Shown: one piece after another, positions 6,060-15,243 of the stretch
Layout of the letters: every line of letters begins with the position of its first letter
How positions within the stretch are numbered: position 1 is the first letter of the stretch
Notes under the pieces: model-generated
What the model was told of the DNA's origin: nothing
Databases searched by the model: none
Seen by the model: the letters and a program-made list of their open reading frames with translations, nothing else
NCBI GenBank assembly: GCA_947470185.1
Contig: CANIRZ010000003.1
Location: 1 to 64,000, forward strand
From: Sphingomonadales bacterium
GTDB taxonomy: Bacteria; Pseudomonadota; Alphaproteobacteria; Sphingomonadales; Sphingomonadaceae
Reading direction: 5' to 3'
Length of the DNA stretch: 64,000 bases
Made by a program: the position numbers and the translations under genes

Positions 6060-7211
6060 TCACAATTGCTTTTCGTAAATACGATATACTTTGTTGATCT
6101 TGCCATTAATGGCTTCGCCGACGGAATTCATCGGACCATTATCGTCCAGTACCCATCCAAATTCGCCACGCGTTGCGCCAAAGTCGGCCGTCGATGAATC
6201 GCGGATCAGCGATACCAGCATGAAGGCCAGCTGGCTCGCCATTCTGGTCGACTGTAGCTTCTTGACCACGCCCATTAACGGCACCCGCATTGTCCGGACC
6301 TTCGGCGCGCGGAGCCACCAAAGCAGTTTCGCCCAGTTAAACGGGAACAACGATCCGCCGAACGTGCCCGTCTTCTCGTTAATATCGGGCCATGTCATCA
6401 TGAAGGCCACAGGTTCCCCATCGACTTCCGCGATGCGGATCAGCTCGCTAAAAACGATCGGTTTCAACTGCTTTCCAGTGTGCGCCACCTCGGCATCTGT
6501 GATCGGGACAAAACCCCAATTGCCGCTCCATGCGTCGTTCAAGATAGACAGAATGATGGCGGCTTCGGCATCGAAATTTTTCTTGTTCACCTTGCGAATG
6601 ACAATGCGTTCGTTCCGTTCGCCCGACGCGACGATGCGTTGCACCAAAGGGGGAAAGGGCACGTCAATCGGGATTTGGTAGGTATAGAGGTCTTTGACAC
6701 CCGCATAACCGGCCGCTTCAATCCACGCGCCATAAGCGGGGTTGTGATAGCCCATGAGTATAGTGGGTGGGTGATCATGGCCGTCAATCAGCAGCCCTGG
6801 CTCTTCCCAGATCGACAGGCTCAACGGCCCCAGTGAACGGACCATTTTCTTATCGCGCAGCCACGCCTCTGCTGCAGCGATTAACGGTTTTGCAACGTCG
6901 GAATCTTCCGCTTCAAAAAAACCCCAATTGCCAACGCCCGGCCCCATGCCTTGTTCTGGCGGCTGTTTCAGCGCGAGATGGTCCATATGTGCGGAGATGC
7001 GGCCAACGACACGGCCAGCGCGCTCGGCAAGGAAAAGCTGCGCCTCACCATGGCCAAACCAGGGGTTTTTTCCCGGTGTGATAGTTGCCATCACATCGCT
7101 TTTTAGCGGCGGAACCCAATTGGGATCGCCCGCATACAAGCGAAAAGGCAGGTCAACAAATGCCTTTTTGTCGGCCATGGTCACAACTGGGCGAATATGT
7201 ATCTGTGTCAT
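6060..7211 (-). CDS. GNAT-fold N-acyltransferase, probable bacterial ceramide synthase
   Basis: The 383-aa protein belongs to a GNAT-fold family that databases often label dATP pyrophosphohydrolase or hypothetical. It starts MTQIHIRPVVTMADKKAF, followed by the family block DLPFRLYAGDPNWVPPLKSD, then LAERAGRVVGRISAH, where GNAT proteins have the central strand and acyl-CoA loop. From memory, the Caulobacter ceramide synthase (bCerS, near spt) belongs to this type; it transfers a fatty acyl group to the amine of the sphingoid base. The assignment rests on this resemblance and on the neighbouring spt, ACP and reductase genes. ATG at 7211 is chosen; upstream codons lack similarity. It reads in the same direction as lptG and lptF. 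Confidence 0.65.
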   Translation of the reverse strand: MTQIHIRPVVTMADKKAFVDLPFRLYAGDPNWVPPLKSDVMATITPGKNPWFGHGEAQLFLAERAGRVVGRISAHMDHLALKQPPEQGMGPGVGNWGFFEAEDSDVAKPLIAAAEAWLRDKKMVRSLGPLSLSIWEEPGLLIDGHDHPPTILMGYHNPAYGAWIEAAGYAGVKDLYTYQIPIDVPFPPLVQRIVASGERNERIVIRKVNKKNFDAEAAIILSILNDAWSGNWGFVPITDAEVAHTGKQLKPIVFSELIRIAEVDGEPVAFMMTWPDINEKTGTFGGSLFPFNWAKLLWWLRAPKVRTMRVPLMGVVKKLQSTRMASQLAFMLVSLIRDSSTADFGATRGEFGWVLDDNGPMNSVGEAINGKINKVYRIYEKQL

Positions 7212-7246
7212 TCTGTATCCCTGAAACTCTATGCAGCGCGCGGACC

Positions 7247-8335
7247 TTATTCTTCGGTACGGACCAAAACGGTTTCGCCTATCAAGAAGAATAACAAGAA
7301 TGGACCCCATGCCGCAATCCAGGGCGGGTACGCGCCCAGATTCCCCATTGCGAGGGCGAAATTATCCGCGACAAAATAGGTAAAGCCCAATGCCATACCG
7401 ATAACGGCCCTCAGGAAAAGTGCGCCAGAACGGGCAAGGCCAAAGGCCGCAACCGCACCCAGCAAAGGCATCAACAGTGTCGACAATGGGGCCGAAATCT
7501 TATGCCACAAAATGCCTTCCAGATTGTCTGTACGGCGACCAGCAGCTTTTAAATCGTCAATCGCGCGCATCAGCGGCAGGAAGGCCAAGCTATCGCCATC
7601 CACTTTGACATAGTTAAACCTATCAGGCGTAATGCCCCTGCCGATTATCAAATTGCCCGGCTTGGTTTCCGTAGTCGTAGCAACATCAAAGGATTTTGCG
7701 TTTTCCAGTTGCCATGCATCGCCAGTATAGCGCGCCTGCGTCGCGGTCACGACTTGCCGTAATCCGCCATTTGCGCGCAGATAAATACGGACATTTTCAA
7801 GCACAGTGTCATCGCCTGATCCAACCACATTGCCCGCGTTGATAAGATCATTACCCTCACGCACCCACACATTATTTCGCGCGTCACTATTGGGCGCAAC
7901 CGCGCCATATTCTGCCGCTTGCCACACCTTCAGGCGGGCCGTGCTTGGCGCGACTACAGCATCGTTGAATACAAAAGAAATAAGCGCAACGCCAAGGCTG
8001 GCGACAAACATCGGCGCCAATATCTGATGCGCCGATAGGCCGGCTGCTTTCATGGCCACGACTTCGCTGTTCTGGCTTAGCCCGGCAAAGGCAATCAACG
8101 TCCCGAGCAAGGCAGAAAATGGCAAAAATCGGGCAATGATTTGTGGCGCGCGCATCGAAACATAATGCAAAACATCGCCTTGGTCATTTCCGGGAACGGC
8201 CAATATTTTGCCACTTTCGCCCAGCAAATCGAGTGTCATCAGTATAAGGACAAGCATCGTAAGCACCGCGAAACTGCGGATGATAAACAACTTGGCCATG
8301 TACATGGTGATGTTGCGCGAGGGGAAGAAATGCAT
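7247..8335 (-). CDS. lptG: LptG-type permease (LptF/LptG family)
   Basis: The 362-aa inner-membrane protein has the LptG layout: three N-terminal transmembrane helices with a conserved segment around PGNDQGDVLHYVSMRAPQII, a periplasmic beta-jellyroll of roughly 140 residues, and three C-terminal helices. With LptF and the LptB ATPase the family extracts lipopolysaccharide from the inner membrane and feeds it to the LptC-A-D bridge. The gene begins three bases after lptF stops, so the two are co-translated. It sits beside ceramide synthesis genes, and no lptD, surA or pdxA is nearby, although those usually accompany lptFG in alphaproteobacteria. A sphingolipid substrate is therefore possible (inference). 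Confidence 0.88.
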   Translation of the reverse strand: MHFFPSRNITMYMAKLFIIRSFAVLTMLVLILMTLDLLGESGKILAVPGNDQGDVLHYVSMRAPQIIARFLPFSALLGTLIAFAGLSQNSEVVAMKAAGLSAHQILAPMFVASLGVALISFVFNDAVVAPSTARLKVWQAAEYGAVAPNSDARNNVWVREGNDLINAGNVVGSGDDTVLENVRIYLRANGGLRQVVTATQARYTGDAWQLENAKSFDVATTTETKPGNLIIGRGITPDRFNYVKVDGDSLAFLPLMRAIDDLKAAGRRTDNLEGILWHKISAPLSTLLMPLLGAVAAFGLARSGALFLRAVIGMALGFTYFVADNFALAMGNLGAYPPWIAAWGPFLLFFLIGETVLVRTEE

Positions 8336-8338
8336 CTG

Positions 8339-13998: not shown

Positions 13999-14244
13999 TT
14001 AGGCAGCGGTTAGCTTAGTCACGGCATCGACCAACTGGCCGACATTTTCGATCTCTGCCTGCAAATTCATGCTGATGATGATGTCGAAGCTGTCTTCGAC
14101 TTCCGCGACAAAGTCCATGACGGTCAGGCTGTCCCATTCAAGGTCGCCAGCAAAGGTCGTTGTCTCACTGACATCAACGCCTTTTTTGTTAAATGGCGCA
14201 ATCAAGCCCTTCAGGCGATCAAACATTTCGCTTCGGTCAGTCAT
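13999..14244 (-). CDS. Acyl carrier protein dedicated to sphingolipid synthesis
   Basis: The 81-aa acidic protein has the phosphopantetheine attachment serine in LEWDSLTVMDFVAEVED (Ser39 region). It differs from housekeeping AcpP in starting MTDRSEMFDRLKGLIAPF and in having a longer loop before the serine. ACPs next to spt in Caulobacter and sphingomonads supply the acyl chain to Spt instead of CoA. The ATG at 14244 is preceded by GAGGATTT. It lies 90 bases downstream of the epimerase-family gene and 19 bases upstream of spt, all on the minus strand. Confidence 0.88.
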   Translation of the reverse strand: MTDRSEMFDRLKGLIAPFNKKGVDVSETTTFAGDLEWDSLTVMDFVAEVEDSFDIIISMNLQAEIENVGQLVDAVTKLTAA

Positions 14245-14334
14245 TCGTAAATCCTCGAAATAGGTTGCGACTATTGCGCTATATCGTGGCGCTATGGCAA
14301 GGGAATAAGGCGGCAAAAGGGCAAGGCCAAGGCG

Positions 14335-15239
14335 CTACATCCACCCTTGCTTGCGATACCATGTTACTGTGTCCTGAAGCCCCTTTGGCGTGGCTATTTC
14401 CGGTTTCCAAAGTTCGGGTGCTGGCGCGGCGTCCGGGTCAATGGTCCAGTCGGGATGCGCAAGATAATTGGCGCGATCCGGCGTCAACTTTGCCTTTGGT
14501 CCCCGAATAGCCCGATCAGCCCATCCCGCAATTTTTAGAAGAAAGCGCGGCGCGTGGATTGTTGTGATTTTGCGTCCGACTGCCGCGCCAATGGCCTTGG
14601 CAAAAGCTTCATGGCTCCACCCGCCCACCATAGCGTCATCAGCCTCAAAAACCCGCTTCGATACATCAGAAGCCGACAGTAATGTCACAAGCAAACGCGC
14701 CAGATCATCGACATGGATGACGGATACGCGTCCGCGTGGCGGCAGCAAGGCCCAGCCTTTGGCAGCAATACGAAACATGTCGAACATTTCGGTGTCACCG
14801 GGGCCATAAACTCCTGGCGGACGGATGACGGTCCAGTCGAGTTTGGAGCAGCGCACCAAATATTCGGCTTTCGCTTTACTGGCACCGTATATCGACAAGC
14901 CAGGGTGGCGGGCGGCGAGTGAGGAAACATGGACGAAGCGACCGATGCCCGCCGATGATGCTGCAGCGAGCATAAGTTTCGTGCCCGTCACATTACCGCT
15001 TTCAAAACCTGCCGCATCGGGCGCGTTTACGACGCCTGCGACATGCAAGACGGCATCAGCCCCTTTGCATAATTCGATGAGGCTGGCGGCGTCATCCAGG
15101 CGCCCATGCACCCAAGTTACCCCGGCTTTCTTGGGCTGGTCGCGCCGCGTCAACGCGCGCACATGCCAACCAGCGGCGAGCAGTCGGTCAAGCGTAATCC
15201 GCCCGACAAAGCCCGTCGCGCCCGTCAGCGCAACTGTCT

Positions 15240-15243
<4 letters not shown>
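14335..15243 (-). CDS. NAD(P)-dependent SDR/epimerase, candidate sphingolipid (ceramide) reductase
   Basis: The 302-aa extended-SDR protein begins [15 protein letters not shown] (Rossmann glycine motif) and has the catalytic YGASKAKAEYLVR (YxxxK) with an upstream HVSSLAA serine region. In the Caulobacter sphingolipid locus the gene in this position (CerR) reduces the keto group of the ceramide intermediate; I infer the same here. The start is GTG at 15243, which overlaps the proB stop as GTGA; an upstream extension lacks the fold. The protein ends with a sugar-epimerase-like tail (TPKGLQDTVTWYRKQGWM). Function is inferred from context and family. Confidence 0.72.

Follow-up and report, generated by a model that had tools for sequence, protein, structure and literature searches.

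Do the ten neighbouring genes found in a Sphingomonadales bacterium together make a phosphorylated sphingolipid and deliver it to the outer membrane? The genes lie in a stretch of 64,000 nucleotides (the window; contig CANIRZ010000003.1, here C3, of the 1.48 Mb assembly GCA_947470185.1, which is 63% complete), where open frames spanning 6060-15330 follow the order bCerS, LptG and LptF on the reverse strand, DUF2141, CpgB and CpgC on the forward strand, and YoaK, Spt, acyl carrier protein (ACP) and CerR on the reverse strand, with ProB and then ObgE beyond CerR. An earlier sequence-only reading had proposed this joint role, and open frames, most of them with Pfam or NCBIfam matches, confirm the ten genes where it had placed them. 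The locus is real, conserved and functionally coherent, and mostly of a known kind. Its gene content and order mark it as a Sphingorhabdus-type variant collinear with the CC_1152-CC_1168 region of Caulobacter. Its best full explanation is probably that it produces an anionic phosphosphingolipid and supplies the outer membrane with it, where headgroup and lipid cargo are the parts that we infer. New to us is the setting, in which LpxC and LpxB were not found, the Lpt pair is single, DUF2141 takes the place that CpgA has in others, and a CofC-like gene is kept without CpgA.

In the proposed pathway, Spt with its own ACP, bCerS and CerR would yield dihydroceramide, which CpgB would convert to ceramide-1-phosphate and CpgC, using cytidine triphosphate (CTP), to an intermediate resembling cytidine diphosphate (CDP)-ceramide. 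A CofC-like enzyme encoded elsewhere would supply or activate a glycerate-type part, giving a lipid similar to ceramide phosphoglycerate (CPG). LptF and LptG would load the sphingolipid onto the Lpt bridge, and the DUF2141 protein would serve the phosphosphingolipid branch as a secreted accessory that perhaps binds calcium. The combination of ceramide synthesis, a phosphorylated headgroup path and export is well supported by the genes present, although headgroup and export are steps that we infer. These 9 kb do not comprise the complete path: neither an acyl-ACP synthetase (AasR) nor CpgA was found in window positions 1-22000, and a different contig carries the CofC-like gene.

The ceramide part is assembled from four genes. 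Spt, the serine palmitoyltransferase (12780..13979, reverse strand), scores 795 bits against NF047603 (cut-off 670). Next to it lie a dedicated ACP of the AcpR type (13999..14244, reverse; PF00550; start picked by eye) with a DSL phosphopantetheine site, and the CerR-type short-chain dehydrogenase/reductase (SDR; 14335..15243, reverse, likely start 15243; PF01370 and PF13460), which is conserved beside ACP. The putative GNAT-type ceramide synthase bCerS, an N-acyltransferase (6060..7211, reverse, likely start 7211), takes its function from Caulobacter CC_1154 by position. As to the GNAT fold assigned to it earlier, 6 of 12 bCerS-family members match PF00583, and the window member has no such match. 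Neither bCerS nor the TAM41-like protein of the window matched any Pfam or NCBIfam family, and the bCerS profile found no PDB sequence within the limits set. Pfam matches among the window proteins were LptF_LptG (twice), DUF2141, DAGK_cat, DUF1275 (YoaK), PP-binding and epimerase/SDR. The window genome also encodes a second Spt-like protein, 33% identical to the first (G000:C15:35835-36872).

This gene neighbourhood extends well beyond a single genome, so that the first refuting case named in the earlier reading, families adjacent in this genome only, does not apply. Among the loci compared, the best protein matches from named species come from Sphingorhabdus profundilacus and S. contaminans, at 95% identity for Spt, 84-85% for CpgB and 75-77% for CpgC, and the loci of both carry the same genes, YoaK included. 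For the order we used 69 CpgC loci with 9 kb on either side, taken from 80 stretches chosen among the best 150 CpgC matches listed. CpgB lay within 9 kb of CpgC in 67 of these, DUF2141 in 60, Spt, LptF and LptG each in 43, bCerS and ACP each in 42, and CerR in 34. In a larger set with at least 4.2 kb on either side, CpgB, which was counted at loci only, stood near CpgC in 166/176. Named Sphingomonadaceae and Kordiimonadales show the collinear block again, the same genes are grouped in Dongia, and in Desulfoprunum they occur in changed order; a class-wide draw yielded 42 CpgC genomes among 337.

The export genes sit in an order that appears to have no lipid A to export. LptG (7247..8335, reverse) scores 309 bits against TIGR04408 (cut-off 240), while LptF (8339..9577, reverse) reaches 227 bits against TIGR04407, just under the cut-off of 230, and 205 bits against PF03739; both are permeases of the Lpt ABC exporter, and they form the only such pair found in the window genome. 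We surveyed 64 genomes chosen across the order, with positive controls in E. coli and Caulobacter vibrioides. LpxC and LpxB were each found in 0/64, LptD and LptF_LptG matches in 64/64. Exactly two LptF_LptG matches occurred in 60 (14/14 and 46/50 in the two parts of the set), and three or four in G003, G013, G043 and G110. Since relatives without the lipid A genes tested still keep Lpt, the gene content suggests that this conveyor now carries sphingolipid. Sphingomonas is already known to lack lipid A (PMC10964400), and the absence of lipid A genes across the order, Kordiimonas-type members included, with a single pair beside bCerS, was not found in our searches of open-licence literature. 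Such genomes would offer a clean system, in which depletion of Lpt should affect the sphingolipid free of interference from lipopolysaccharide.

The headgroup branch begins with CpgB (10191..11162, forward, TTG start; PF00781 DAGK_cat), a putative ceramide kinase. It has the features listed for CpgB-type kinases in PMC10331486, namely a DAGK catalytic domain and a GGDG motif without CxxxCxxC, and found no sequence match in the PDB within the limits set. CpgC (11172..12119, forward; homologues point to a later start near 11196) is a predicted nucleotidyltransferase whose kinship eluded sequence searches: none of 20 family members (0/20) had a TAM41-type Pfam match with an E of 1 or better, and the CpgC profile found no Tam41 chain in the PDB at E up to 10. 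An AlphaFold2 model built on 20 family members, with a Kordiimonas-type sequence first (L084, 37% identical to the window protein), reached a pLDDT (predicted local distance difference test) of 88.7 and a pTM (predicted template modelling score) of 0.86. Foldseek placed Tam41 at ranks 1-4 of its PDB matches (best E 4.3e-8), which bears out the TAM41-like fold named in the earlier reading. The G and S of a GS motif and the DF of an LDF motif are unchanged in 20/20 members; both motifs probably correspond to those of Tam41 itself. The predicted fold of CpgC matches that of Tam41, a CTP-using activator of lipid phosphates, a likeness that is new here. CpgC most likely activates ceramide-1-phosphate with CTP to give CDP-ceramide, as far as a predicted model can indicate; the term 'CDP-ceramide' had no match in the literature searched. 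Three pattern matches to CpgC in viral contigs yielded no confirmed case.

CpgC has a constant companion in the CofC-like nucleotidyltransferase, which we equate with CC_1153 by family and position. In the window genome it lies at G000:C5:25662-26420 (E 1.1e-70). At E up to 1e-25 it was detected in 167 of 246 genomes of the order, comprising all 166 with CpgC and only 1 of the 80 without, a genome (G040) that is 64% complete. The two genes are mostly unlinked (within 9 kb in 6/69 order loci), and having or lacking both varies inside several genera (g2, g3, g7, g12, g15, g20). CpgA, a CDP-alcohol transferase, was found at E up to 1e-50 in 48/246 genomes, 44 of them with CpgC (60/246 at the looser E of 1e-20). 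CofC-like therefore tracks CpgC and not CpgA, because 166/166 CpgC genomes carry it and 122/166 are without CpgA. Within the genus, 0/7 genomes, the window genome included, had CpgA at E up to 1e-20, so that the Caulobacter-style CPG2 route would be incomplete there. A motif search for CDP-alcohol transferases found 46. In one Dongia locus, another CDP-alcohol phosphotransferase, the second there, is encoded between the genes for LptG and the fatty-acid hydroxylase (L141:3159-4385), a candidate for the first headgroup transfer.

DUF2141 (9705..10181, forward; PF09912, 72 bits), the first gene of the kinase operon, encodes a small β-protein with a start that by eye resembles a signal peptide. 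Its β-model has a pLDDT of 87.6, and a D-x-N-x-N loop is invariant in 17 members; this loop resembles a calcium-binding one. A fold search returned nothing under E 2.6e-3, and a PDB sequence search gave none better than E 0.95. The family matched in 208/246 genomes, and its linkage to CpgC was compared over the best 150 CpgC rows (of 166 genomes) and the best 150 DUF2141 rows. Of the 127 genomes with both among the matches listed, 119 have DUF2141 no more than 3.5 kb away from CpgC. In 46 genomes of the family compared, CpgC and Spt are 69.8 kb or more apart or sit on different contigs, and DUF2141 adjoins CpgC in 44 of these; CpgC has also moved in G056 and G148, where Spt and DUF2141 are not among the matches listed. 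In the moved loci that were read, DUF2141 is convergent to CpgB and CpgC instead of upstream, and LptF/LptG lie elsewhere in genomes with a moved operon such as G050, G118 and G177. A different break is seen in four genomes of another group (L233-L236), which keep LptF, DUF2141 and CpgB together and have CpgC with Spt apart.

A quick tree of DUF2141, with support from the Shimodaira-Hasegawa-like approximate likelihood ratio test only and with 75 of 134 sequences (33 of 92 upstream copies among them), places convergent and upstream copies in one group, from which five other copies are split off by a branch of length 2.23 with support 100. Eight copies without CpgB or CpgC nearby (L237-L239, L241, L242, L244-L246) fall inside the same group. 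These sequence comparisons describe DUF2141 as mostly one orthologous group and a long-kept neighbour of cpgB and cpgC through two break-ups of the cluster, which is new here, and the gene thereby gains real support as a probable member of the sphingolipid locus. In the passages searched, the literature on DUF2141 mentions linkage to the carotenoid gene crtG, and ceramide or sphingolipid did not appear. We discarded the idea that DUF2141 is an exclusive substitute for CpgA: among 176 loci flanked by 4.2 kb or more on either side, DUF2141 alone stands near CpgC in 103, CpgA alone in 30, both in 4 and neither in 39, and G035 is one example of a genome that has the two genes. The Fisher p of 7e-11 for avoidance is untrustworthy, as the loci are related and some genomes are counted twice. 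Equating CC_1157 with DUF2141 is also unlikely, since the gene beside LptF in the other lineages compared encodes a HIT-domain protein.

Several points weigh against the pathway as proposed. The phospho branch is optional, because 80/246 genomes have no CpgC match, yet Spt occurs in 240/246 and in 222/222 of high quality; Lpt may also, or mainly, carry glycosphingolipids. Ceramide synthesis and Lpt could then be the only linked pair, with glycosphingolipids as the cargo and the operon of kinase, CpgC and DUF2141 a separate, optional trait placed between them, as the 46 moved operons also suggest. We regard this as rather unlikely in view of the collinear block shared by Sphingomonadaceae and Kordiimonadales, the grouping in Dongia and Desulfoprunum, and the shared distribution of CpgC and CofC-like. 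Similarly doubtful is the explanation that DUF2141 is an ordinary envelope protein and its linkage an inherited gene order. The eight distant copies, which read away from CpgB/CpgC inside the orthologous group, count against a strict tie; at least seven genomes without a CpgC match carry a DUF2141 match of at least 137 bits; and no fold match is informative. Against this stands a linkage that persists although the cluster was rearranged twice and DUF2141 switched both side and strand. The main proposal is also weakened by the 150 CpgC genomes, where DUF2141 is elsewhere in 8 and not among the matches listed in 23.

The CpgC model resembles Tam41 moderately, at ~13% identity and with a TM of 0.47 for the query, and Foldseek also returned related folds, aminoglycoside nucleotidyltransferases among them, at E 3.5e-5 and weaker. 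CpgC might accordingly act on another acceptor such as phosphoglycerate, with lipid activation or a later step left to the CofC-like enzyme, whose one-to-one co-occurrence would suit such a division. This seems less likely still, given that the four best matches are Tam41, CTP-bound entries included, that CpgC directly follows the ceramide kinase, and that CC_1161 (CpgC) is needed for CPG in Caulobacter, where the mutant makes none (PMC11324152). A Caulobacter CC_1153 mutant still makes CPG and loses only CPG2 (PMC11324152), a phenotype that does not fit an action of the CofC-like enzyme as early as the first step of headgroup formation. As the window genome is 63% complete, absences are argued from its relatives. 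That YoaK is the sphingolipid transporter of the locus, as its place between CpgC and Spt in six loci might hint, is very improbable, since 6/6 belong to the Sphingorhabdus type, a MOP flippase occupies the space from LptG to bCerS in many relatives, and one YoaK locus (L182) has both.

YoaK/DUF1275 (12116..12769, reverse; PF06912, 114 bits) is instead a probable passenger: with 6 occurrences in 220 stretches scanned (3/69 order loci), its distribution speaks against a part in the pathway. The sphingolipid roles that had been foreseen for DUF2141, YoaK and the TAM41-like gene thus remain plausible by linkage for the first and are unsupported for the second, and the third is already cpgC, just as the kinase gene is already cpgB (PMC10331486, PMC11324152, PMC12275187). 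A MOP-type (Polysacc_synt) flippase gene is present in 34 of the first 81 loci, typically in the LptG-bCerS gap (L038, L040-L042, L079, L084 and others), and is a candidate inner-membrane flippase for ceramide lipids in these relatives; none was found in window positions 1-22000. The LptG-bCerS gap of some relatives also contains a fatty-acid hydroxylase. Between LptF and CpgB, Dongia and others carry CpgA together with a calcineurin-like phosphoesterase, sometimes with a HIT gene as well, and in Nitrosomonas CpgA alone was seen between the Lpt permeases and CpgB. A phosphonate headgroup, suggested by Kordiimonadales neighbours (a class V aminotransferase and an NTP transferase) reminiscent of an aminoethylphosphonate path, was dropped; their NCBIfam scores are EgtE/SufS-like, molybdenum cofactor and XdhC-type, all under cut-offs. 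A scan of 9400-15500 gave no sigma-70 promoter and an uninformative 10 terminator-like sites against 8.6 expected. Just outside the locus, a TANGO2-family gene (4757-5527) overlaps a frame with a weak SRAP match (5452-6018).

Taken more widely, we tentatively suggest that a GTDB-type order (Sphingomonadaceae, Kordiimonadaceae, Iodidimonadaceae and kin) without lipid A synthesis may use its single Lpt system as a sphingolipid exporter, that in two thirds of genomes the cargo could include an anionic phosphosphingolipid from a CpgB/CpgC/CofC-like trio gained or lost as a unit, and that a secreted, calcium-binding DUF2141 might be its periplasmic handler. This is possible rather than probable. 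Two candidate pathway partners, CofC-like and DUF2141, emerge from the analysis.

The core of the sequence-only reading was right but mostly already described, because the gene order of the window follows that of the Caulobacter region. There, CC_1154 and CC_1162-1165 make dihydroceramide, CPG2 requires CC_1159, CC_1153 and CC_1152, and LptC2, LptF2 and LptG2 were proposed as putative transporters (PMC11324152), while CC_1160 (CpgB) is an assayed ceramide kinase (PMC10331486). An activation step had already been suggested for CpgC (PMC11324152), whose activity the 2025 CpgD paper left for later work (PMC12275187). The route of sphingolipids to the bacterial outer membrane was stated as unknown, and such genes were called scattered in S. 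wittichii and Z. mobilis (PMC11324152); many of the Sphingomonadales loci analysed here are unscattered. By locus number, bCerS, LptG, LptF, CpgB, CpgC, Spt, ACP and CerR follow the same order as in CC_1152-CC_1168, whereas the window has DUF2141 where other lineages have CpgA, phosphoesterase and HIT genes, its stretch shows no AasR, flippase or CofC-like gene, and its genus is without CpgA. The window kinase, with ceramide genes adjoining, is likened to CpgB by features and not by alignment (PMC10331486). Both LptF2/LptG2/LptC2 and the window permeases lie beside ceramide genes, but the latter are a single pair and not second copies. Compared with the CDP-diacylglycerol synthase Tam41 (PDB codes 7ecd, 6ig2 and 6ig4), CpgC shares the predicted fold, with about 13% identity in the structural alignment and no match by sequence, and its genomic context is ceramide, not diacylglycerol.

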